Assembly: GCA_016927275.1 (NCBI GenBank)
Contig: JAFGMW010000072.1
Span: 1 to 47,507, forward strand
DNA from: Pseudomonadota bacterium
Lineage (GTDB): Bacteria > UBA10199 > 2-02-FULL-44-16 > JAAZCA01
Length of the DNA: 47,507 nt
Reading direction: 5' to 3'
Below are positions 274 through 35,274 of the stretch, in pieces (positions within the stretch are counted from its first letter, which is position 1; each line of letters begins with the position of its first letter). The notes under the pieces are model-generated. The model had not been told where the DNA came from and did no database searches. It saw only the letters and a list, made by a program, of their open reading frames with translations. Position numbers and translations under genes: made by a program.

Positions 274-1497
274 GTGTCGAACGTCTCGATAGAGCAGAGA
301 TACCAGCAGCTCATGGACCTGGTGCAGAAAAACGCGCCCATGGAGGAGATCCAGAAGGCGGAGGTGGAGCTGGCCGATGCAGTCCAGCGCGCGCCGTTCG
401 AGATCAAGGAGGGCACGCCGTTCTTCCAGCAGCTCGCGCAGAAGCTCGACGCCACGCAGGCGTTCCAGCACTTCAGGCTATTGAACGGCAGGATGGTGGA
501 CGACCGGCGCGAGCAGTTCATGGGCCGCCCCGAGAAGCAGGCCGATGAGGCCGGCAGGGCGGCGCAGCAGGAGCAGGCCAAGGAGGTCGCAAAGGAGGTC
601 GCCAAGGACGCCGCAAAGGAGGGCGCCAAGGCGGCGACAGAGGAGGCGGGCAAGAAGGCCGATGCCAAGGAGGCGAAGGAGGGCGCCCGCGCGGCCGCAA
701 GCATGAAGCTCTCCGAGGGGCTGGACCAGAGGGCGGCAGGAAAGCGCCTGGACGAGATGCTCTCGAAGTTCGAGAGGCTGGTGATCGACCGCTTCGAGGG
801 GGGCAAACAGGTCGCGCAGGAGAGCGCGGACGGAAAGCCCCACTTCAATCCCAAGACAGAGGCGGAGTGGAAGCAGTTCTTCCAGAACTTCCTGGACCGC
901 ACGGTCGCGAAGAAGGCCCTCATCGACGACATCAAGCAGCTCTTCATGCGCGGCGTGGTGCAGAAGGGCGGAAAAGGGATCTTCATCGGCGACATGCATC
1001 TGTCAAATGGGAGGGTGGAGAAGTTCGTGCGCTTCTCGATCATCGCCGAGGCGCTCGCGAGGCTCCGCGCCATGATGCCCGGCAGCCAGATCACAAAGGA
1101 GATGCTCGGCAAGATGACGAGCGAGGAGCTGCTCTACCTCGCGCTCGCCGCCACGCGCGGCCGCGAGTTCGCGTTTCAGCAGAAGGATGCGGAGGGCCGA
1201 TTCGGGCTCGCGAAGGCGGAGGCCCAGGCCGCTGAAAAGCTCGGCATCCCGCTCGAGCAGCAGCTCGCTAAGAAGGCGCGGATGCTGAAAGACCGCCGCG
1301 GCCGCGGCATGGCCTGGTACGACAAAGACGGCGAGCCGGAGGAGCTGCCATACCAGTTCGTACCCTGGTGGCAGTGGGGCAACCTCACCGGCCCCTCCAA
1401 CACCAAGTGGGTCACCCGCGTATTCTACGGCGCGCTGTTCATAGTCTCCCTCATAGGCATCGTGGTGCTCACCCTGCGGCTTTTGGCGGGTGGGTAA
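274..1497 (+). CDS. Ala/Lys-rich protein with C-terminal membrane anchor, unknown function
   Basis: 407 residues from a GTG start preceded by AGGAGG (258-263), 10 nt upstream. I do not recognise the family. Residues about 95-150 are a charged, helix-forming stretch of repeated AKE/AKEGA units. The middle part (about 150-340) is mixed helical and lacks a known motif. The C-terminus has a Trp-rich patch (PWWQWGN) followed by one hydrophobic helix (about 380-403) and a three-residue tail. This is the layout of a tail-anchored protein with most of its mass in the cytoplasm. There is no N-terminal signal peptide. It has its own promoter and is followed by an AT-rich spacer, so it is probably monocistronic. 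Coding is strongly supported by start context and codon use; function is unknown. Confidence 0.8.
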   Translation: MSNVSIEQRYQQLMDLVQKNAPMEEIQKAEVELADAVQRAPFEIKEGTPFFQQLAQKLDATQAFQHFRLLNGRMVDDRREQFMGRPEKQADEAGRAAQQEQAKEVAKEVAKDAAKEGAKAATEEAGKKADAKEAKEGARAAASMKLSEGLDQRAAGKRLDEMLSKFERLVIDRFEGGKQVAQESADGKPHFNPKTEAEWKQFFQNFLDRTVAKKALIDDIKQLFMRGVVQKGGKGIFIGDMHLSNGRVEKFVRFSIIAEALARLRAMMPGSQITKEMLGKMTSEELLYLALAATRGREFAFQQKDAEGRFGLAKAEAQAAEKLGIPLEQQLAKKARMLKDRRGRGMAWYDKDGEPEELPYQFVPWWQWGNLTGPSNTKWVTRVFYGALFIVSLIGIVVLTLRLLAGG

Positions 1498-1600
1498 AGC
1501 TTCACTTTTGTAGTATCAACCTAATATATTAATTTATATGGTTTAATTTACTTTTACTTCAAGGCAACTCCAGGGCCCGCGCTGCCGATAATATTGATGT

Positions 1601-3856
1601 ATGGGTATCATAATCAAACCTGGCAAAATTCCTGAAGAAACCGCTTTGAGGATAAAAACCCTCTACCGCGAAGAGGCCTCTGTTCTGCTCGCACAGGGCC
1701 CGCGTGAAACAGACAGGGCCCACTTCGAGCTCACGATACAGGAGGGCGAGATCGAGGGCGGGGAGGCGCTCGAGACAGGGGAGGAGGGCTCGGGTGTCCT
1801 GGCAGACTATCTCACACTGAACGAGGGCGGCAAAGGCGTCACTTCGAGCGGAATAGGCTTTGTGATCGAAGAGGGCGTGCCGGCGCCTCGCATAGATAAT
1901 TTCAACCGCCTCTTCGTCACATATCACAACGGTTCGGGCGAGCTGCGCGCAAGGTCCTTTGACAACAGGTCGTGCATCCCGATGGATGTTGAGCAGGCAG
2001 ACGGGCTCCCCGCGCAGAGGCTCGAATGCTTTGAGACCTCGTTCCTCGGCGCCGCGGAGTTCGTCTCGCTCAAGGTAGGGGACTGGAACGGCGACGGCCG
2101 GATCGACATGGCATATGTTGTGGATGACCCGATCCTGGGCAGGCAGACCTATCTCTTCCAGAACAAGCCGATCCATGAGATCGCGCCCGAGGGCGCCTCG
2201 CAGCTGTGGAAGGTCTACGACGGGCTGCTCGCGGACGGCGTGGAGCTGGACGCGCACTTCATAGGCAGGATGAGGGCGCTCGGCGCGAAGATGGTCGAGC
2301 TCATGAAAGAGGGTGAGGACGCCATTGTCGACGACATCATGCGGAAGATCGACTATGCAATGGGTCTGGGTCACAGCGTGGAATACAGTTTCAAGCTCGA
2401 TTTCCTGACCGCGCTCCTCGACGTGTTCGAGCTCTCGGGCGGAGATCTTCGCATCGTGGCCGATGTCGGCATCAAACGAGACGAATTGCTCTTCCACAAT
2501 CTTCGGCTCATGAGGCTCGCAGGCATGTTCGCGAAGGCGCGCGACAAGGACAGCACAGGCAGCCTCAAAGAGGCGTATCTGGTCAACATGATGAGCGGCC
2601 TCTACTGGTACTCAATTGCTGGAATGACGCCCTATGCGGATGCCGAGTACGAAGCCCTGGTCCGCTCCATAGCCTCGATGGGGAACGGCATGACCGAGGA
2701 GCAGCTGGCCGGCATACACGCGGCGATGTGGTTCGGCTTCATTCGCCCCCATGACGGTCAGGGGACCACTCCCGTCGGGCTCGCCTCGCAGATCGACCAG
2801 GCCATGTCAGCGCCGGATGCAAAGGGGCGCTATGCTGCGCTGTACGATCTCTTCAGGGGAGATCTCGATCTGGACGCGGATTTTCTGGTAAAGTACTCCC
2901 CCTTCATCACCGCCTCAAATCTCCCGACCTTAGAGGACTTGAGGATCGCCGATGCGGCCATCGGGTCCGAGGATGCGCTCCGCCTCTACCAGAAGTTCAA
3001 CATCACCCGCTTCGCGCGCTATCATCCCTCGGTGCTCAGGCACCTGGTCGATATGGCGAAGGACCCGGATCACATGAGGGACAGACCGCTGGTCATGATC
3101 GTCACGGCACAGTTCGACGGCACGGGGATGTTCCACTGGGGCCGGAGGTTCGAGTACGACCCGCGCGTGCGGGTGGTGGCCGTGGAGGTGGGTTCGGTCC
3201 CGGAATTGGACTTTGCGATCAGGGACCTTGCGAAAAAATACGGCGCTCCGGACAGCGTGATGATAACCGCGCACGGCGACCCCTCGTACATGATGATGGG
3301 ATATTTGAGCCCCGACGAAGCCCGCTCGTCTAGCACCGGTTTTCTCATGGCCGAAGAAAGATCTGTCGGTCACAAGGTGTCGTTGCTCTCGGTGGATCAC
3401 CATTATGATTTTCTTTCCAAGAATCTCGGCGGCGTGTTCGGGAGCGCGAGGCCCCAGATCGTGCTCAACTCGTGCAGCACGGGCAAGGAGAGGCCCGACG
3501 GCAGGCTCAATGTTGCGCAGATGTTCGCCAACGTCTTCCAGACCGAGGTCTATGCGCCCGAGGCGGTGGAGGGGCTCTTGAAGCTCGACGTGGATGTGGA
3601 CGCCAACGGCCGCGCGAGGCTGAATCCCCTCTTCGCAGAGGTGCGCGACGGTCCGATCGGTCTCAACGACGGCGGCCGGAGGTTCGTGCCGCAGCCCTAC
3701 GGCATGGTCACGCGGCGGGGGCTCAGCCGGCGGCAGAGGGACGCGGTGGCCTCGTCCGGCGAGGCGCTCCCGGGCTCGGACCGCATCCCGGACCTCGGCA
3801 AAAAAGAGGGCCGCAGTCGCGCGCGAGAGTTCTTCCGCGGGATCTTCGGGTGGTGA
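1601..3856 (+). CDS. Large protein with caspase-like (clan CD) His/Cys dyad, putative cysteine peptidase
   Basis: 751 residues, no signal peptide. An FG-GAP/EF-loop-like Ca-binding segment DWNGDGRID lies at 161-169. Residues about 495-660 resemble the clan CD fold seen in CHAT, C80 and gingipain-type peptidases: a hydrophobic strand (MIVTAQF), then TAHGDP with His558, then a strand ending in LNSCSTG with Cys625. The order His-Gly ... Ser-Cys, each after a hydrophobic strand, is the hallmark of the clan. The middle (about 220-490) is helical and unrecognised. The start lacks a clear Shine-Dalgarno, so ATG 1601 is provisional. It follows an AT-rich spacer (1498-1600) and stands alone. The peptidase assignment is inferred from motif order only; an inactive relative is possible. 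Confidence 0.6.
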   Translation: MGIIIKPGKIPEETALRIKTLYREEASVLLAQGPRETDRAHFELTIQEGEIEGGEALETGEEGSGVLADYLTLNEGGKGVTSSGIGFVIEEGVPAPRIDNFNRLFVTYHNGSGELRARSFDNRSCIPMDVEQADGLPAQRLECFETSFLGAAEFVSLKVGDWNGDGRIDMAYVVDDPILGRQTYLFQNKPIHEIAPEGASQLWKVYDGLLADGVELDAHFIGRMRALGAKMVELMKEGEDAIVDDIMRKIDYAMGLGHSVEYSFKLDFLTALLDVFELSGGDLRIVADVGIKRDELLFHNLRLMRLAGMFAKARDKDSTGSLKEAYLVNMMSGLYWYSIAGMTPYADAEYEALVRSIASMGNGMTEEQLAGIHAAMWFGFIRPHDGQGTTPVGLASQIDQAMSAPDAKGRYAALYDLFRGDLDLDADFLVKYSPFITASNLPTLEDLRIADAAIGSEDALRLYQKFNITRFARYHPSVLRHLVDMAKDPDHMRDRPLVMIVTAQFDGTGMFHWGRRFEYDPRVRVVAVEVGSVPELDFAIRDLAKKYGAPDSVMITAHGDPSYMMMGYLSPDEARSSSTGFLMAEERSVGHKVSLLSVDHHYDFLSKNLGGVFGSARPQIVLNSCSTGKERPDGRLNVAQMFANVFQTEVYAPEAVEGLLKLDVDVDANGRARLNPLFAEVRDGPIGLNDGGRRFVPQPYGMVTRRGLSRRQRDAVASSGEALPGSDRIPDLGKKEGRSRAREFFRGIFGW

Positions 3857-4002
3857 GTCCCCCATCCGGAGACTTGAAACGACGAATCGTTCGATCCGAC
3901 GTCCTTTCAGGGACGCAGCGATATCTAAATAGTTAAAATTTAAGAATAAATTATCGATCTGAAACGGTCAAAAAGGCCCGCATCTTGCATGTACATATCT
4001 CC

Positions 4003-5769
4003 ATGACAAAACTTGACAGCTCATGCGTGGCGGTTCTGGCAGCGGTCCTGGCCTTGGCGTTCATCGCCGGTTGTTCTGCCGGCGGCAGCGACGCTGAGGA
4101 ATGGTTCGATTCACCCGGTCCCGCCGTGCAGCAGGACGGGCAGCCGGACGATATGGCTGGCGATCTCTCCGATGGCTCCGGGGAGGAGCGCTCAGATGAG
4201 TCGATCGTGCCTGAGGACGAAGCGCCTCCGGACATCGTAGTCGAGGAGCCCGAGTTCGAGGGGTTCGGCACGAACGATACCGATACAGGCAGCCCTGCTG
4301 TCGAGCCGGAGCCCATGGAGATAGTAATCTTAGGCGATGTGCAGACGAGCGCGGTCGAGCTGGAGCCTTACACGCAGGAGTTCGCCGCAGCAGGCGGCAC
4401 AGGGTTCTACACGTGGAGCATCAGCGGTGCGCTCCCCGACGGCCTCTCGTTCGTAAAGCAGGGGAGCGTCGTGAGTATCAGCGGAGCTCCTTCGGAGGGA
4501 TCCGAGGGCAGCTATCCGATCACGATAACGCTCAGCGACACCCTGGGCTGGTGGCCGAACGATTCAGTATCCTTTACTCTCTCTGTCACGCTGCCTGCGG
4601 CTGAGGAGCCTGCGGCAGAACCTGAGCCTGAATCTGAACCTGAGCCTGAACCTGAGCCTGAAGAGGAAGCATCTCCGCCCGCTGTCCCGGACGGCCCCTA
4701 TACGCTCCGCTGCTTCTGGGATGCGGACGACGTCGACGGCGACGGGTATGCAGCCGCAGGCTCCAAGTCCTATCTCGTCGGCAGGGAACTGAACAACCGG
4801 CTCACTTGCCCGGCCGGTTACGTGCCGGCGACCGGCGACTGCGACGATTCGAGCGCCTCGATCCATCCGAGGAGGGGCGAGATCGCGTTCAACGGCGTTG
4901 ACGACAACTGCAACGGCCTCACGGACGAGCCGGCGCCTGTATACCCGTCGAGCTCATCCCGCAGCTTCGAGACCTCGTTCGAGATGATCTTCAAGCTCAA
5001 CGACCAGGCCGCCGCAGCGGTCGAGGGCGATCTCTACGCTGACGTCGAGTACGCGAGGCTCAGGGATTCGGCGAACGCGCAGACCCGGTCGAAGGTGTTC
5101 GTGAGCGCCTACACCTCCGGCGGGAGCAGATACGCCAAATACACCCTCGACGGGCTGAGCACGACCACGGTCTACAGGGCGAGGGTCCGCTTCTTCAGCA
5201 GGGCCGGCACCTCGTACAGCGCTCTGGGGCCTCTCTCGCCCTGGTATTACACGACAACAAACGGCACGACCGAAAAGAGCATCGTCAGGACCAAAATCGT
5301 CGTCAAGGCTCTGAAGCAGCACTCGGACGCGCTCGAGGGCAAGGTCGGCACGCTAGGCACCGTGGACGTGAACGGCACGCGCTACGGCGCAGACCATGAC
5401 GAGTGGTGGTGCAGTGAATTCTATGCGTGGAACGCGAGCAGCTGGCTCAAGGGCGTGGGCTCGAAGACCTCGGTGGACGCGCTGAAGAGCTACTTCTCAT
5501 ACTATGACGGATATTACACGGAGGCGGATATAGGCGTGGGCGATCGCGGCGACTGGGTGAGCATTGACGGCCATCACAGCACCATGCTTCTTGCCATAGA
5601 GAAGAACGGCTCTACGAACAAGGACGACTGGTCGATCTGGACCGTGGAGGGAAACACCGGCGATTCGGGCGGCGTGCCTGTGCCTGCGAACAACGTGGGC
5701 GTGAAGAAGCGGAAGGTCTCTTCCTATGTGATGGGGCTGGGCCACATCATGAGCTCCCAGCTGCTCTGA
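4003..5769 (+). CDS. Mosaic surface lipoprotein: Ig-like, MopE-like Ca/metal-binding and CHAP-like domains
   Basis: 588 residues from ATG 4003 (an in-frame ATG at 3985 would add six residues; neither has a clear Shine-Dalgarno). A lipoprotein signal ends in IAG-Cys24. After an acidic linker come a He_PIG/cadherin-like Ig domain (about 120-197), a Glu-Pro repeat linker, and a MopE-type module (about 237-310: DVDGDGY, GDCDDS, GVDDNCNG). A fibronectin-like segment (about 320-425) follows. The C-terminal 150 residues look like a CHAP/NlpC-P60 papain-fold amidase: WWCSEF with Cys470, GDWVSIDGHH with His524/525, and VEGN (549-551). A cell-wall amidase or peptidase tethered to a membrane is the natural reading; substrate unknown. 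Domain calls rest on motifs read by eye. Confidence 0.72.
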   Translation: MTKLDSSCVAVLAAVLALAFIAGCSAGGSDAEEWFDSPGPAVQQDGQPDDMAGDLSDGSGEERSDESIVPEDEAPPDIVVEEPEFEGFGTNDTDTGSPAVEPEPMEIVILGDVQTSAVELEPYTQEFAAAGGTGFYTWSISGALPDGLSFVKQGSVVSISGAPSEGSEGSYPITITLSDTLGWWPNDSVSFTLSVTLPAAEEPAAEPEPESEPEPEPEPEEEASPPAVPDGPYTLRCFWDADDVDGDGYAAAGSKSYLVGRELNNRLTCPAGYVPATGDCDDSSASIHPRRGEIAFNGVDDNCNGLTDEPAPVYPSSSSRSFETSFEMIFKLNDQAAAAVEGDLYADVEYARLRDSANAQTRSKVFVSAYTSGGSRYAKYTLDGLSTTTVYRARVRFFSRAGTSYSALGPLSPWYYTTTNGTTEKSIVRTKIVVKALKQHSDALEGKVGTLGTVDVNGTRYGADHDEWWCSEFYAWNASSWLKGVGSKTSVDALKSYFSYYDGYYTEADIGVGDRGDWVSIDGHHSTMLLAIEKNGSTNKDDWSIWTVEGNTGDSGGVPVPANNVGVKKRKVSSYVMGLGHIMSSQLL

Positions 5770-6557: not shown

Positions 6558-7430
6558 ATGATGATGAAGGACAGATCGAAGATCAGGATGGCGCTCCCCA
6601 AGGGACGCATGCAGGAGGGGGTAGTATCGCTCCTGGCCGACGCGGGGATCGACGTGCGTTTTCCGAAGCGCGGGTACAGGCCGCGGCTCTCTCTCGCCAA
6701 CTACGAAGCTAAGATACTCAAGCCCCAGAATATCATAGAGATGCTCGGCGCAGGGTCGCGCGACGTGGGGTTCGCAGGCGCGGACTGGGTGGCGGAGCTG
6801 GGCTTTGAGCTCACGGAGCTCATCGACACCGGGCTCGATCCGGTGCGCATGGTGGCCGCGGCGCCGGCCGAGCTGCTCGAGGGCGGGAGGCTGCCCGGGG
6901 GAAGGCTCGTGGTGGCATCGGAGTACGAGAGGCTGGCGGGGAACTGGATCGGACGCGAGCGGCTGGACGCGACCCTGGTTCGCACCTACGGAGCCACCGA
7001 GGTATTCCCCCCCGAGGACGCGGACCTGATCGTCGACCTCGTGGCGTCGGGCGAGACCCTTCGCGCCAACAAGCTCGTGGAGGTGGCGGAGATCATGCGC
7101 TCCTCCACGAGGCTCTACGCGAACCCCCGCGCCATGGATGATCCGAACAGTCGCGCGGAGATCGAGGAGCTTGTCATGCTGCTCCGATCGGTCATCGAGG
7201 CGCGCGGCAGGGTGATGGTGGAGCTGAACGTCCCTGCCGACAGGCTGGAGTCGGTGATCGAGATACTGCCGTGCATGCGCGAGCCCACGATGGCGGAGCT
7301 GCACGGAGGGGCAGGCTACGCGGTAAAGGCGGCGGTGCCGCGCGCCGAGCTGCCGAGGCTGATACCGGAGATAAAGCGCAGGGGGGGCTCGGACATAGTG
7401 GTCATGAGCCTGGCGCAGATAATGTCATAG
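6558..7430 (+). CDS. hisG: ATP phosphoribosyltransferase, long form (HisG)
   Basis: First step of histidine synthesis: ATP + PRPP to phosphoribosyl-ATP. About 290 residues, the long type that carries a C-terminal ACT-like regulatory domain (about 215-290, ending IVVMSLAQIMS) and therefore needs no HisZ partner. The catalytic part begins IRMALPKGRM and contains GADWVAELG and the phosphate-loop region LIVDLVASGETLRAN. AAGGAGG (6546-6552) lies 5-11 nt before three consecutive ATG codons (6558, 6561, 6564), so the exact start is one of these. It is first in the his operon. Feedback inhibition by histidine through the C-terminal domain is expected from the family. Confidence 0.95.
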   Translation: MMMKDRSKIRMALPKGRMQEGVVSLLADAGIDVRFPKRGYRPRLSLANYEAKILKPQNIIEMLGAGSRDVGFAGADWVAELGFELTELIDTGLDPVRMVAAAPAELLEGGRLPGGRLVVASEYERLAGNWIGRERLDATLVRTYGATEVFPPEDADLIVDLVASGETLRANKLVEVAEIMRSSTRLYANPRAMDDPNSRAEIEELVMLLRSVIEARGRVMVELNVPADRLESVIEILPCMREPTMAELHGGAGYAVKAAVPRAELPRLIPEIKRRGGSDIVVMSLAQIMS

Positions 7431-7438
7431 GGGCCAAG

Positions 7439-9160
7439 ATGGGCGAGCGAAGATCCATAATGCCTTCGCCTGCGGTGAGCGGGATGACGGCCTACAGCGT
7501 CCCGAGGCACGGGGCGCCGATCGACCTGTGGCTCGACGGCAACGAGGGCGCGGCCCCTCCCGCGGAGCTGATCGAGCGGATAGCTGCCGCGGGCACAGAG
7601 GCGATGAGGCGCTATCCCGACGCGCGCCCTCTCGAGGAGAGGATAGCCTCTATGATCGGCATCGATCCGGGCCGCTTGATCGTCACCGCAGGAGGCGACG
7701 ACGCGATATACCGCGCGCTGAAATCGGTGCTGGCCCCAGGCAGGGAGCTGATTCTGCCTGAGCCGACCTTCGAGATGTTCGAGCGCTACGCGAGGCTCGC
7801 CGGAGGCGAGGTGGCGAGGCTCTCGTGGGCGGAGGGGCCCTATCCGGTGGAGGATGTGATAGCCGGCATCAGCGAGCGCACCGCGGCGATCGCGGTGGTC
7901 TCCCCGAACAACCCGACGGGGCTCGTGGTCTCGGAGGACGATCTGAGGAGGCTTTCCGCCGCAGCCCCGCACGCCCTCATAGTCGTGGACCTTGCCTACG
8001 CGGAGTTCGCAGATCGCGACCTCACAGGGGCGGCGCTTGAGCTGCCCAACGCGGTCGTCATACGCACCCTGTCCAAGGCGTGGGGCCTGGCGGGCCTCAG
8101 GGTCGGCTGGGCTGCCGGCCCCGCCGAGGTGATCGGCTGGATGCGCGCCGCCGGAAACCCCTACGCGGTCTCCTCCGCTTCGCTGGCCATAGCGGAGGAG
8201 AGGCTCTCCCACCGGAGGAGCGTCGGCGAGTTCGTCTCGACCGTTCGATCGGAGGTGAAACGCATAAGCAGGGCGATCGAGGATCTCGGAGGCCGGGTCC
8301 TCCCCTCGCAGGCCAACTTCGTGCTGGCGAAATTCCCGGATGCAGCATGGGTGCGCGACGGGCTCGCAGGACTGGGCATAGCGGTGCGGGCGTTTCCCGG
8401 CAGGGAACGGCTCGAGGACAGCCTCAGGATCACGATGCCGGGGAACGGGAGGGATTTCGACAGGCTGCTCTCTGCGATAGAGACCGTGCTCGCCCCCGAG
8501 GCGATCATATTCGACATAGACGACACCCTCGCGGACGTTACCGAATCGTACAGGCGCTCGATCGTGGAGACAGCCCGCTCGTTTGGTGCTGCCGCCTCGC
8601 CGGCCGACGTCGCGAGGCTAAAGGCGGCAGGCAACTCGACAAACGACTGGGAGCTGACCTGGCGGCTGCTCGGGGAGTCGGGGATCGAGGCGTCGTTCGA
8701 GGAGGTACGGCGCCGGTTCGAGGCGATATACCAGGGCACGGGCGAAAGGCGCGGGCTCAAGGAGAACGAATCGCTCATGGTCGACTCGAGGATGCTCGAG
8801 CGACTCTCCCGCAGGTTGAGGCTCGGCATAGTCACCGGCAGGCCGCGCTCCGATGCGGCCGCCTTCCTCGCCAGGGAGGGGATCGACCGCCTCTTCTCCG
8901 CCGTGGTCGCCATGGAGGATGGACCGCAGAAGCCCGATCCCGTGCCCGTGAAGGCGGCGCTCTCTGCTCTCGGGGCCTCGCGCGCCTGGATGGCAGGGGA
9001 CACGCCGGACGACATGCGCGCGGCCAGGGCGGCCGGCGTGCTTCCGATAGGGGTGGTCGCTCCGTCGGATGACCCTGAAGCAGCTCGGGCCGCGCTCACG
9101 GGAGCCGGGGCCGCCCGCGTGTTCTTGAAACTCTCCCAGATAGAGGAGGTGGTCCCATGA
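7439..9160 (+). CDS. hisC: Fusion: histidinol-phosphate aminotransferase (HisC) + HAD-family phosphatase
   Basis: 573 residues from ATG 7439, eight nt after hisG. Residues 1-350 are a fold-type I aminotransferase of the HisC family, with SPNNPTG and the PLP-binding Lys213 in TLSKAWGLAGLRVGW. Residues about 353-573 are a complete HAD hydrolase: motif I DIDDT (Asp359 nucleophile, Asp361), motif II Thr466 in TGRPRS, motif III Lys498, motif IV GDTPDD (Asp521, 524, 525). HisB in this operon has only the dehydratase domain and no other histidinol-phosphatase is visible, so the HAD half is the best candidate for that step, consecutive with the HisC reaction. Its substrate is inferred, not shown. The stop overlaps the hisB start (ATGA). 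Confidence 0.9.
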   Translation: MGERRSIMPSPAVSGMTAYSVPRHGAPIDLWLDGNEGAAPPAELIERIAAAGTEAMRRYPDARPLEERIASMIGIDPGRLIVTAGGDDAIYRALKSVLAPGRELILPEPTFEMFERYARLAGGEVARLSWAEGPYPVEDVIAGISERTAAIAVVSPNNPTGLVVSEDDLRRLSAAAPHALIVVDLAYAEFADRDLTGAALELPNAVVIRTLSKAWGLAGLRVGWAAGPAEVIGWMRAAGNPYAVSSASLAIAEERLSHRRSVGEFVSTVRSEVKRISRAIEDLGGRVLPSQANFVLAKFPDAAWVRDGLAGLGIAVRAFPGRERLEDSLRITMPGNGRDFDRLLSAIETVLAPEAIIFDIDDTLADVTESYRRSIVETARSFGAAASPADVARLKAAGNSTNDWELTWRLLGESGIEASFEEVRRRFEAIYQGTGERRGLKENESLMVDSRMLERLSRRLRLGIVTGRPRSDAAAFLAREGIDRLFSAVVAMEDGPQKPDPVPVKAALSALGASRAWMAGDTPDDMRAARAAGVLPIGVVAPSDDPEAARAALTGAGAARVFLKLSQIEEVVP

Positions 9161-26661: not shown

Positions 26662-29600
26662 CTATTTCTCTTCCGCTTCAGCCGGCAGGGCCGTGGTCCC
26701 GCCTCTCTCATCCGGCTGTGAGGCAGAATCCTTCGGCCGTGCGATTCCGACGAAGAGGCGGTCCGCGTGACGGGTGCCCGCCTCTGCGCGCCTGTGCGCC
26801 ATCATGCGCTGCTCCGTGACTTTGAACGGCTCCTTTAATCTCTCGCGCACGTATGCGCGCCGGTCGAGCCCGTAGGGCGCCTTCGGGGACTTGTGGAGGT
26901 CGAGATCGACCCCGAGCGCCATGGGTATGTCCGGGCGCTCCGTGAAGAACTCCCTTATCGCCGCGCCGGAGCGGCTGCTGCCCCTTGCGAAGGCGAGGGT
27001 CTGCACCAGAGGCCTCAGGGAGCCGTATCTCTGCACATCTGGCGCGTAGAACTTCAGATACTCGAAGAGGATCGACAGCTGCTCATCGGAGACCTTTCCC
27101 TCCTCGAGGAGCCTGTATATGGAGGTGTACTGCATCTCGTTGGGGATGTGCGGGAACGAGGGCGGTTTTACGGCCCGGCTTATGGAGACGACCTGCCAGA
27201 GGCGGTCCTTCAACGACTTATGGCCGAAGAAGGGGTGCAGGCCGTGCATGCGCTGACCGGCCAGCCTGAAGAACTGATCGAGCTTCGTCTCCTCGAACAT
27301 CCTCGCCATCTCCGGGCGCGAGAGTTTGCCCGCGGCCTTGAGCTCCTGGAAGGCTGCGAATGCCTTGCTCGTCCTCGCCTCGAACTGCTCCATGTCCCAG
27401 CGCGTCCCGCTCGGCTCGGGCCAGGTGGCGGTCGTGGCCCCGTTGATGGTGAGCAGGTTCATGCCGATGAACGCCCCGTAACCGGCGAGGCTGTTCCATC
27501 CCAGCATCGACCTTATCCCCGCGGAGGGGAGGTCCCATGTGCCCGAGCGGATGCCCCTGTTGTAGGTGTAGAACGCCCTGAACGACCTGAGGAGCGCGTA
27601 CGCGGACCCCGCCGCGCGGACCGGGAAGGCCCTGCCGGCCCGTTCGCGCCACGCCTCGGAAACATTGGCGATGATGCTGTACTTGCCCTTTGCGACTCCG
27701 CTCATGAGGAGCGCGATGGGCAGCTGGATGAAGGTGAGCGCCGAGCCCTGGATCATGCCCCGCACGAACGTCGACGGCCTCTCCCCGACCATCTGCTGTA
27801 TCGCGTGGCCTATCGGGGCTGTGATTCCGATCATGATGGAGGCGGTCATCGGGAGCATCCAGTTGCTGTCCTCGTTGCGCGGGTCCAGCCCCTTCAATGC
27901 CGGAACGGTGGAGGATGCGAACCTCGAGAGCACGTTTCTCTTCTTCCCGGAATCCTGCTTCGCGGCCATGGGGGTCGCGCCCGCGTTGGTGAGCATCAAG
28001 AGGCTCTCGGTGACGCCCAGTGCGCTCAGCCCGGCGGCGACCCACCACGCCTTGTCGACGAACGGTGCGGCGTCGATCCCGACGATGGATGCGCTGATGT
28101 CGGCCGAGAGCATCATGGCGCCGGGCAGAAAGAGGAACGGCAGGCGGCAGTTTCTGATGAAGGGCAGGTGCTTGAGTATCGGCACCGACTTGAGAGTCGT
28201 CGTCTTGAGCCACTCTCTCCCTTTTTTCGGGAAGTCGGCGAAGAAGATCGCCAGGGAGCTCTTCGTGTAGAGGTGGTAGGCCGCGCCCAGGGCCAGCTTG
28301 ACCCCGGGCGTGGAGGCTATGGCGTCCCTGGCCCTGGCGGTCGCATCGCCGCTGACGAGCGAGTTGAAAAATGCCGCGCCCTTGTCGGGAAGATCGAGGA
28401 TCCCGGAGAACGCCTTGGCGAACGCCTTGGCGAACGGTGTGTAGAACTCGGTCGCCCCGCCTGCGCCCGACGCGAGGAGCGCCGACGGGAGCAGCCACGC
28501 GGCCATGGTCATGGCGCCGTGAGTCACCACGCGGGCCGCGTCCCTGAGCGTATCCAGGAAGCCGCGCTCGTATGTCCCCGTGCCGCCGGCCGCCTGGGCC
28601 TCGTTCGTGTTCCAGCCCCTTATGAGGCGGTATAATGTGTCGAGGATGCCGGCGCCCGCCACGCCGCCCGCCAGCGTCCAGCCGCCAGTGAGCAGGTATT
28701 CCCCTGCCATGCCTGCGGCCATGCCGATGGCGCCCGCGAGAGCGGAGTGTTTGAGCCCCTCCGATTGCGAGTGCTGTATTGCGGCCTGCAGCCTCTTGCG
28801 CCAGCGGCCCTTTCGTGAGAGCGCCTTGATCTCCTCGCCCCCGAGTACCCGGTCGCCGTCCACGAACGGCTCGAATATCCTGTCCTCTGCGAGGCGATGC
28901 GCCGCAGGGGTCCCCCTGAAAGACTCGGCGAGCGTTCGGGCCATCCTCAGCGCCGGGTTCCACAGCTTGTGGAGGGCCATGAGCTTCGCGGAGTCGTAGA
29001 GGTGATCTGCGGCAAGGCGCTTCATCTCATCCGTGAGATGGGCCGGCTTCAGCTTCTTGAACTCGTTGTGCAGCTCCTCGATCAGCGCATCCCGCTCGCT
29101 CTGGTGTGTGCGGTTGTGGGCGAGCTCGATCAGGCGCGAGATGATCTCGATGTTGAGCAGGCGGGTGGAGAACTGAAGGTCGCGCCCCTCTCCGTCGGCC
29201 GAACCGTCGATCGTCTGCAGGGCGCGCCGAAGCGACTCCTGCGCGTCCGACAGCAGCTTGAGCGGCGGCGACGATGCCGAAGCGGCGTGGCGCATCAGCT
29301 GAAAGGCGGTGACTACGTCGGCCTTTGCCCGGTCGGTCCCGCTGAATTGGGCCGGGTCCTTTATCAGCTCCCTCACCATCGCCAGTCGCTTGAGATGGGC
29401 TGCCGGGGCCTCGGCGAGGTGAAACAGCGCCGCCCCGATGGAGGACTCCCTGAAACGGTTCACGCCCTGCGCGATTTCAAGATAGAAAGCCCTGCCGCTC
29501 GCCGCATCGGTCTGTTCGAGAGCGCCGGCTGCAGCGGCGTATTCTTTGCCGCTCTCTTCATAGCGGCCCTCGCTCAGATGCCTGCGCGCGTGCTCGATCC

Positions 29601-29859
29601 CCTGACTGGCCTCAATGCCGATCCGGGCGCGTTCGTGGTCCACGACCCCCCCGTCCCCCATGGAGCGCGCCTGCGCGGCGAATCTCGAGGCGTGGGTGCG
29701 GGCCGGATTCACGTCAGCGATCAGCTGCCCGGCCCCGGGGGGCCCGCTGAGGAAAGGATCGTTGGCGGTGATCTTGATCGGGCCTTGCGCCGGGATGCCC
29801 GAGGGCGATGCCGGCGGTCCGGCGCAGGGGAACGTCAATGTGAATCTGTGCTGGATCAT
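26662..29859 (-). CDS. Large multi-spanning membrane protein, unknown family
   Basis: 1065 residues; not recognised. Residues 1-360 are soluble and helical, with TPR-like spacing in places (HLSEGRYEESGKEYAAAAGAL). About 370-830 contains seven or eight hydrophobic segments (for example LAGAIGMAAGMAGEYLL, LPFLFLPGAMMLSA, WWVAAGLSALGV, MLPMTASIMIGI, LTFIQLPIALLM). The last 230 residues are soluble and charged. No signal peptide. The start ATG 29859 has GGAG about 12 nt upstream. The reading frame is long, stop-free and follows the codon bias of its neighbours, and the hydrophobic pattern is coherent, so it is real. Confidence 0.75.
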   Translation of the reverse strand: MIQHRFTLTFPCAGPPASPSGIPAQGPIKITANDPFLSGPPGAGQLIADVNPARTHASRFAAQARSMGDGGVVDHERARIGIEASQGIEHARRHLSEGRYEESGKEYAAAAGALEQTDAASGRAFYLEIAQGVNRFRESSIGAALFHLAEAPAAHLKRLAMVRELIKDPAQFSGTDRAKADVVTAFQLMRHAASASSPPLKLLSDAQESLRRALQTIDGSADGEGRDLQFSTRLLNIEIISRLIELAHNRTHQSERDALIEELHNEFKKLKPAHLTDEMKRLAADHLYDSAKLMALHKLWNPALRMARTLAESFRGTPAAHRLAEDRIFEPFVDGDRVLGGEEIKALSRKGRWRKRLQAAIQHSQSEGLKHSALAGAIGMAAGMAGEYLLTGGWTLAGGVAGAGILDTLYRLIRGWNTNEAQAAGGTGTYERGFLDTLRDAARVVTHGAMTMAAWLLPSALLASGAGGATEFYTPFAKAFAKAFSGILDLPDKGAAFFNSLVSGDATARARDAIASTPGVKLALGAAYHLYTKSSLAIFFADFPKKGREWLKTTTLKSVPILKHLPFIRNCRLPFLFLPGAMMLSADISASIVGIDAAPFVDKAWWVAAGLSALGVTESLLMLTNAGATPMAAKQDSGKKRNVLSRFASSTVPALKGLDPRNEDSNWMLPMTASIMIGITAPIGHAIQQMVGERPSTFVRGMIQGSALTFIQLPIALLMSGVAKGKYSIIANVSEAWRERAGRAFPVRAAGSAYALLRSFRAFYTYNRGIRSGTWDLPSAGIRSMLGWNSLAGYGAFIGMNLLTINGATTATWPEPSGTRWDMEQFEARTSKAFAAFQELKAAGKLSRPEMARMFEETKLDQFFRLAGQRMHGLHPFFGHKSLKDRLWQVVSISRAVKPPSFPHIPNEMQYTSIYRLLEEGKVSDEQLSILFEYLKFYAPDVQRYGSLRPLVQTLAFARGSSRSGAAIREFFTERPDIPMALGVDLDLHKSPKAPYGLDRRAYVRERLKEPFKVTEQRMMAHRRAEAGTRHADRLFVGIARPKDSASQPDERGGTTALPAEAEEK

Positions 29860-30287
29860 CGCGTCCGTTCTCCATCCCCGTTATCGGCTAACCGCGCGCC
29901 GAGTTGCTCAGAAAATGGGGTAAAACGGCCGATTTTATTACCGCTTTCTATTGTCTTAAAAACCCTGAAAGGGCCGAAATAAGGGCATTTGCCCGTGCCT
30001 CGCCCTAGCGCCATCCTGTGATCTTGTCAACATAATCAAGCCGGATGCGCCTCTCGATCAGAAAGATGCCGTTCCCGGGCCTTCTGTTTTCCCTTGAAAT
30101 GTGAACGGCGGAGGGCGGAAGGTGAGGGGGTGCCCAAAACTGTGCAGTGCTGCAGCGTTTCGCAGCACCTGTTTTTTTCGGCTCTTTGATAAATAAAGGA
30201 TTTTTTCCGGCACAGCTCGTGCATTGTTCTGCGTTGTCATTTTATCCGTCAGGTGATAGCGTCGCCCGCCATTGAGGCAGGGGGACC
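29860..30287. other. 428-bp intergenic region between divergent genes
   Basis: No ORF with support. It separates the 1065-residue gene (minus) from pgpA (plus). A weak minus-strand promoter (TTAAGA, 16 bp, TAAAAT) can be placed about 29928-29956. A plus-strand terminator-like hairpin with seven T residues lies at 30147-30178, although no plus-strand gene is upstream of it. This leaves room for a small RNA or a terminated pgpA leader. Confidence 0.5.
30147..30178 (+). terminator. Rho-independent terminator-like hairpin without an upstream gene
   Basis: GTGCTGC (30147-30153), an 8-nt loop, GCAGCAC (30162-30168), then CTG and T7. A related sequence with TGCAGCGTTTCG at its core forms the inverted repeat at 46574-46596. 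Confidence 0.55.
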
Positions 30288-33872: not shown

Positions 33873-35213
33873 CTACAGCTTTTTCGTTGAGATATATTTC
33901 TCCGGTATCTCCCTGACAACGTCGTCGGGCAGCGGGTCGTAGTGTTTGAACTCGGAGCAGAACATGCCTCTGTGGAAAGCCCAGTCGTTCTTGCCGTCGC
34001 AGTAAATCTCTGCGGAGCGCAGGTTCGCCATGTGGCCGAGCACTTCTCTGGCCGGAGCGGTCAGCATCTCGCTGTACCTTGCTGGCAGATCCGACAGAGA
34101 TTTGCCAATTTCTCCGTTCAGCATGCCCATTATAGTGTCGTGCTGGTGAGAGCTTATGTAGCCGTATTTTTTCAACAGGTCGATCTTCTTCGTAAAGGTC
34201 GGAATACTGTTTTCCATCCTCCTGAGAGTGTAGTCGTTTTTGTAAATCTTGCCCACGAGCTCGGATATGTCTTCGTCATAGCTCGTAGTTGCGTATAACG
34301 ATATCAATCCCTTCTTCGTCAAGGCCCATTCGAGATCGCTGTATGTTCTCCACTCGTCAACATCTATGTGCGGCAGGTCGTCATTTGAGAGAAGCCCCTT
34401 GTCGAGATAGGGTTCAACTTTAGCCCGAAGGCTTTTCTCGCGCGGGTCCCCACCGCTGAGTCCGACATAGACATCTCCCGCAGCTTCTATCCACTCCGCC
34501 TTCAGCTTTTCACCGTGCAGATCTGTCAGGAGGTGTGCTGCTTCGTGGTACGTCAGCTCGCCGGAGCCCTTGGCATCGTACCCCCTGAGATGGATATGGC
34601 TGATATCTGAATAGGAGTTGCCTTGAACATTCAGGAGACCGTATTTTGAAAAATCGAGCTCCCGTTCCCTCAAGTCGATCGAATGCAGGGCTGATCTGAG
34701 CTGGGGCGTGAGGGTTTCGTAAAGGCGGCGGAAGGCTTCAAGCCTCATGGTCTTCGTTACAGTGCTGTCTCTTTCATCCAGCACGATTTCAACATAGTCC
34801 ATCTCTTTCGAGTCGTATTTCTCAAAGAGCTTCAAGAGGGGCTCGTCGGCGATGAGCGATCGCTCGTCTTCACGCGATTTCAGCTTTGCCGAGTGAAGGG
34901 AGAACCAGTCGGCTGCCTCCGAGTTAAGCAGGGCCCTGATGCCCCGGCAGATGAAATCCGGTATGGGCAACTCAGAGACAGCCCTGACGATTACCTCCCT
35001 CGAGAGTCTGACCGCAGCGAGTCGATAGAGGTTTTTCTCGGCGCCGTCCGGCAGGGAGAGTATTTCGACCTCCGGTGTCCCGATCAGTCCGATGGTGCCG
35101 TCAAGCGCGTCGCCCGAGACGATTGCCTCGTAGTCGTTGCCGGTAAGCTCCTTCAGGAATGCCCTCTCCTGAGGGGTCAGTCTGGCAGCCTCTTTTACGA
35201 TGGTTGGTGCCAT
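33873..35213 (-). CDS. Putative zinc metallopeptidase (HEAAH, gluzincin-like), otherwise unknown
   Basis: 446 residues, no signal peptide or membrane helix. Residues 223-227 are HEAAH; Glu243 and Asp247 follow in AEWIEAAGD, a spacing resembling gluzincins in which ExxxD supplies the third ligand. I recognise no family for the rest. The start ATG 35213 has no clear Shine-Dalgarno. Base composition looks visibly less G+C-rich than the flanking recA and alaS, and the gene is inverted between two genes commonly adjacent (recA-recX-alaS), which suggests insertion by transfer. Catalytic function is inferred from the motif only. Confidence 0.65.
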   Translation of the reverse strand: MAPTIVKEAARLTPQERAFLKELTGNDYEAIVSGDALDGTIGLIGTPEVEILSLPDGAEKNLYRLAAVRLSREVIVRAVSELPIPDFICRGIRALLNSEAADWFSLHSAKLKSREDERSLIADEPLLKLFEKYDSKEMDYVEIVLDERDSTVTKTMRLEAFRRLYETLTPQLRSALHSIDLRERELDFSKYGLLNVQGNSYSDISHIHLRGYDAKGSGELTYHEAAHLLTDLHGEKLKAEWIEAAGDVYVGLSGGDPREKSLRAKVEPYLDKGLLSNDDLPHIDVDEWRTYSDLEWALTKKGLISLYATTSYDEDISELVGKIYKNDYTLRRMENSIPTFTKKIDLLKKYGYISSHQHDTIMGMLNGEIGKSLSDLPARYSEMLTAPAREVLGHMANLRSAEIYCDGKNDWAFHRGMFCSEFKHYDPLPDDVVREIPEKYISTKKL

Positions 35214-35274
35214 CCATTGACAGTTATCGGCAGGCAGAACCCCCGAAGTTGCCTTGTCATTTCCTGCCGGTGAT

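Follow-up and report, generated by a model that had tools for sequence, protein, structure and literature searches.

The window analysed here is the whole of a 47,507-nt stretch (contig JAFGMW010000072.1, forward strand) from a bacterium that GTDB places in the phylum UBA10199. Near its start lies a gene for a 751-residue protein in which an earlier note, made from the letters alone, had pointed to a caspase-like His558/Cys625 dyad. We would class the protein as a divergent DUF4347 relative that, with its clan-CD-type dyad, resembles a clan CD protease in anatomy; its relatives reach DUF4347 proper, whereas its own score falls short. Searched alone, it had no match that exceeded the threshold in Pfam, NCBIfam, PADLOC, or PDB sequences. 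The features of the gene are as follows.

1564–1591, forward strand: sigma28 (FliA/WhiG)-type promoter-like element, GCAAC-N15-GCCGATAA, an exact match ending 9 nt ahead of the start codon.

1601–3856, forward strand: coding sequence of the orphan protein (751 aa, ATG start), with a C-terminal DUF4347-like predicted caspase-fold domain.

2081–2107, forward strand: Ca-binding-type loop DWNGDGRID, aa 161–169, FG-GAP/EF-like by sequence, with a weak FG-GAP_3 match (E 0.03–0.1).

2168–2911, forward strand: middle region, aa ~190–437, with no Pfam match and no family, in the position that HEAT-like or DUF4116 repeats occupy in other members.

2912–3670, forward strand: C-terminal protease-like domain, aa 438–690, defined by alignment with relatives and by a profile match of 4.1e-59 to a profile that includes the window sequence itself as one row.

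3116–3118, forward strand: Asp506, an invariant Asp after predicted beta-1 in the alignments (family motif D-x-N-x-A).

3185–3187, forward strand: Glu529, an invariant Glu closing predicted beta-2 (alignments and family model).

3272–3274, forward strand: His558, the predicted catalytic His (MITAHGDP; alignments and family model).

3473–3475, forward strand: Cys625, the predicted catalytic nucleophile (VLNSCSTG; alignments and family model).

The placement of the dyad agrees with the earlier description: the two residues are 67 positions apart and each is preceded by a hydrophobic stretch (SVMITAHG and PQIVLNSC). A simple hydropathy scan found no hydrophobic N-terminus in the protein, in line with the proposed lack of a signal peptide, and the N-terminal Ca-loop motif is present, with its FG-GAP_3 match below the cut-off.

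The roughly 250 C-terminal residues of the protein belong to a diverse family that is concentrated in this phylum. A single-sequence search recovered two relatives, G006 from the same order and G045 from the same class; G006 is the nearest at full length, with 37% identity over aa 406–704 of the window protein. A profile built from these three sequences reached 16 of 46 genomes of the class, and all its new matches were C-terminal; a profile of the domain (A2) placed the family in 23 of the 46 genomes of the phylum, where one genome can carry as many as five copies, and there is a single copy in the genome of the window. Outside the phylum, three of 339 genomes were matched, the proteins being one of 379 aa and two encoded by very large open reading frames (ORFs). 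Within this sample of genomes, the family is thus concentrated in the phylum. A full-length protein scan of genome contigs found no close relatives, and family queries run against collections of viruses, phages, and plasmids (L026 in the case of phages and plasmids) also found none.

Conservation within this family is narrow. In an alignment of 18 sequences, which are 18–29% identical to the first, only D506, E529, H558, and C625 (numbered as in the window protein) are invariant, and R473 is almost so. Two residues picked in advance would fall among four invariants of 255 positions with a chance of ~2e-4; since the pre-named His558 and Cys625 make up two of only four invariant columns, the dyad stands out beyond chance. 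Both residues are likewise kept by homologues in a larger set, the His in 31 of 32 sequences and the Cys in 31 of 32, with no loss beyond one weak relative. This is L055 (G028:C9), a weak family match without either residue and possibly a degenerate or pseudo-protease. Two giant proteins (L060 and L061) are without the D-x-N and Glu invariants of the family. It could be argued that the domain is a catalytically inactive caspase fold used only for binding, as pseudo-enzymes such as the pseudo-orthocaspases (PMC6426788) are known in clan CD and L055 would be a case of this kind, but the retention of His and Cys in 31 of the 32 aligned sequences, where almost everything else varies, makes such a role very improbable.

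Several lines of evidence relate the domain to proteins of known structure. The cut-off of DUF4347 (PF14252), at 24.6 bits, is passed by the relatives G006 (31.4), L026 (32.4), and L003 (26.6); it is exceeded in four of the 46 genomes and the matches span the His and Cys region. A profile search of the PDB gave Tce1, a DUF4347 protein, as the best match (E 0.003), followed by caspase-4 and CHAT proteins with insignificant E-values. A model of L026, which is 24% identical to the window domain, reached a predicted local distance difference test score (pLDDT) of 70.7 and a predicted template modelling score (pTM) of 0.75. Its predicted order is a strand (62–68), Asp71, a helix, a strand (91–97) that includes Glu96, a helix, a strand (117–124) followed by His125, a helix, and a strand (165–175) followed by Cys176. 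The His thus lies directly after beta-3 and the Cys directly after beta-4 in the model, which is the caspase order. An order of strand-His and strand-Cys is that of clan CD, as in caspases and their relatives. When the L026 model was searched with Foldseek, the top PDB match was 9qpe_G, which is Tce1 (probability 0.97, E 1.1e-3), and MALT1 was also listed.

Taken together, the sequence profile (Tce1), Pfam (DUF4347), and conservation agree in supporting a caspase-like reading, for which the fold search would be insufficient alone. The clan CD arrangement put forward earlier is supported by the conserved His/Cys pair, the DUF4347 matches of relatives, the strand order of the L026 model, and the alignment of the Tce1 dyad. 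As judged from sequence and modelling, the caspase-like reading is supported for fold and active site, and proteolysis is what we infer from them. By profile, the closest match is DUF4347, and the profiles of CHAT, C11, and C80 peptidases were not reached. CHAT (PF12770) remained below its cut-off, with a match in a single member of the 18 scanned (E 0.019), as did Peptidase C14 (PF00656; E 0.0081 in one scan and 0.025 in another, 14.7 bits against 21.4), and C11 and C80 are absent from the 17 families matched by any of these 18 members. CHAT and C14 proteins, the latter including caspases and the paracaspase MALT1, have the same order of strand-His and strand-Cys, but all member matches to them are below cut-off, and the tetratricopeptide-repeat or CRISPR context of the CHAT type was not seen for this family.

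The closest solved relative, by sequence and by fold, is Tce1 (PA0256), which carries DUF4347 (PMC8262886). Tce1 is an Hcp3-bound effector of the type VI secretion system (T6SS; PDB 9qpe) and gives the best profile and fold match for the family, with His and Cys in matching places. It differs in its length (310 aa), in having another N-terminus, and in being bound to Hcp, with no T6SS link shown for the present family. Compared with DUF4347 as described, for which relatives including G006 pass the cut-off, the family has the D-x-N and Glu invariants in addition, and its domain is preceded by arms of the DUF4116, HEAT-like, or Ca-loop kind. The 2026 structure paper describes Tce1 as a putative cysteine protease whose His186 and Cys240 align with the dyad of TcdB, and yeast growth was not markedly inhibited by Tce1 in the available part of that paper (PMC13323088). 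The toxin domains of C80 (TcdB and the self-cleaving domain of MARTX) share the dyad order and are linked to the family via Tce1, but differ in that no member scanned had a C80 profile match. A domain of this type might act on the protein that carries it, cutting off the N-terminal part so that this is released or matured, and a C-terminal location in long, multi-part proteins would suit such a role, as would the alignment by the Tce1 authors of their dyad with a self-cleaving domain. Some members of the family are short (377–440 aa), however, with little to release, and we regard self-processing as unlikely.

What varies between members is the part in front of the domain. A new observation is that N-terminal modules of different types (DUF4116, HEAT-like, and Ca-loop-like) are joined to it. 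DUF4116 repeats were found in front of the domain in four members tested, with E-values down to 1e-117; G045 has HEAT-like repeats in its N-terminal part and other members have EF-hand-like stretches below cut-off. The window protein and G006 both have an FG-GAP-type loop (DWNGDGRID in the window protein), and in the N-terminal parts of these two it is the one block for which similarity could be detected (blastp E 0.001). This layout suggests that the arm is regulatory or targeting, and calcium might, more speculatively, control the protease.

A second new observation is the sigma28-type promoter-like element, which precedes about half of the members tested. The exact pattern GCAAC-N13..17-GCCGATAA occurs 38 times in the genome of the window and not once in the reversed control; every one of the 46 phylum genomes has two or more copies, against 0–3 per genome in the controls. 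With up to two mismatches allowed, 10 of 19 family genes have it close to their start, compared with 14 of 216 neighbouring ORFs, a difference (p ~9e-7) that is optimistic because the spacing and boxes were picked after viewing some of the genes, and the members are related. The element resembles a sigma28 (FliA) box and, on its sequence and position, is presumably a sigma28 promoter. A FliA/WhiG model matched in 45 of the 46 genomes and exceeded its curated cut-off in only four; since most matches are below cut-off, other sigma factors may be included. Within the genome of the window, most of the scanned proteins behind the pattern are without a Pfam family, exceptions including HEAT repeats, a DnaJ-PilZ protein, and a transglutaminase. 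In Bdellovibrio, the FliA motif TTAAG-N16-CCGATA marks attack-phase promoters (PMC3627812).

The -10 box lies only 9–10 nt ahead of the start codon (1584–1601 in the window; also in L071, L075, and L083), so that the transcript would be almost leaderless. A coding peptide or an RNA hairpin had also been considered for the conserved 27-nt element at the start codon; this idea was dropped because the frame appears to differ between the window and G006 and the conserved part belongs to a class of promoter-like elements that all 46 genomes contain.

On these grounds it is probable that the protein is a soluble, clan CD-type cysteine endopeptidase, regulated by a variable arm and deployed via a sigma28-type programme. 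The C-terminal domain (aa 438–690) would supply the His558/Cys625 catalytic dyad, with Asp506 and Glu529 probably shaping the active site or the substrate pocket. The N-terminal arm, here the Ca-loop and a helical region, would most likely recognize a partner or target and control the protease. Transcription of the gene most likely starts at the sigma28-type promoter, within a programme of large orphan proteins; such a programme suggests that the protease probably comes into use during one particular phase of life, and an effector-like enzyme would be likelier than a housekeeping one. Several findings weigh against this proposal. The window domain, when modelled with four relatives, gave a poor pLDDT of 43.6, and the window protein is below the DUF4347 threshold, with no match at E <=0.1 in the search of its own genome and none by hmmscan. 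The template modelling (TM) scores of the L026 model to Tce1 are only 0.34/0.43, no Foldseek match was found at E <=1e-3, and many unrelated alpha/beta folds score just behind Tce1. Cleavage by Tce1 itself is not demonstrated in the available part of its report (PMC13323088). The EF-hand and FG-GAP matches are all under their cut-offs, and most members of family f12 are without the promoter.

Where such a protease would act can be approached from its genomic surroundings. Among the neighbourhoods of 19 members there is no common gene besides the family itself, save for scattered pairs and one trio, and the gene in the window is followed by a protein with MopE and He_PIG features and then by hisG and other his genes. 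One proposal, parallel to that made for Tce1, is that the protease cleaves the proteins of other cells, into which it would be exported or injected. The role of Tce1 as T6SS cargo, the lack of a hydrophobic N-terminus, the diverse N-termini, the patchy occurrence at up to five copies per genome, and a promoter class common to many large orphan proteins are all consistent with delivery, but no conserved neighbour gene for immunity or secretion was found; we consider delivery a realistic prospect that nevertheless falls short of being probable.

CHAT and caspase-like effectors occur among bacterial defence proteases, and in outline a caspase-like fold with a repeat sensor arm recalls them. An intracellular protease for abortive infection or regulated death, triggered when the repeat arm senses an invader, would fit this picture. 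The role in cell death or defence that had been offered as possible found no support: the window protein has no PADLOC match, the gene adjoins the his operon with no conserved neighbour, and the L026 query found no match in phage and plasmid collections. There is also no sign of a defence island or an immunity partner near the gene, PADLOC having been run on the window protein and not on its neighbours. We judge the defence role to be distinctly unlikely, and the leading reading is an effector-like protease of the sigma28-type programme, with intracellular defence less likely.

More tentatively, and with some doubt, a sigma28-type factor may, across the phylum, deploy caspase-fold proteases with interchangeable sensor arms (Ca-loop, DUF4116, and HEAT-like) together with dozens of other orphan proteins that are large and signal-less; these would form an effector-like arsenal whose transcription is under flagellar-type control, much as FliA drives the attack phase in Bdellovibrio. 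The findings bring a predicted active site of caspase type to a bacterial phylum about which little is known, join the uncharacterized DUF4347 domain to sensor-like arms, and connect a predicted protease to a sigma28-type promoter in a way that can be tested. Should its members prove active, the family would provide new regulated caspase-like enzymes of bacterial origin and shed light on DUF4347, a domain named in only four papers of the library that was searched.

Other features of the window include further copies of the same promoter class, given here with their positions.

29881–29907, reverse strand: copy of the promoter class.

35224–35252, reverse strand: copy of the promoter class.

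Directly behind copies of this class are ORFs at 26662–29859 (reverse strand, 1065 aa) and 33873–35213 (reverse strand, 446 aa), neither with a Pfam or NCBIfam match. Upstream of the protease-like gene, a 407-aa orphan (274–1497, forward strand) is rich in alanine and lysine and has a C-terminal hydrophobic segment and no family match. Between the protease-like gene and the his genes is a 594-aa protein (3985–5769, forward strand) with a lipoprotein-like start, a Putative Ig domain (He_PIG), and a MopE metal-binding motif. Finally, between hisG and an IGPD gene, one ORF (7271–9160, forward strand) combines aminotransferase and HAD hydrolase domains, and is possibly a HisC-phosphatase fusion.
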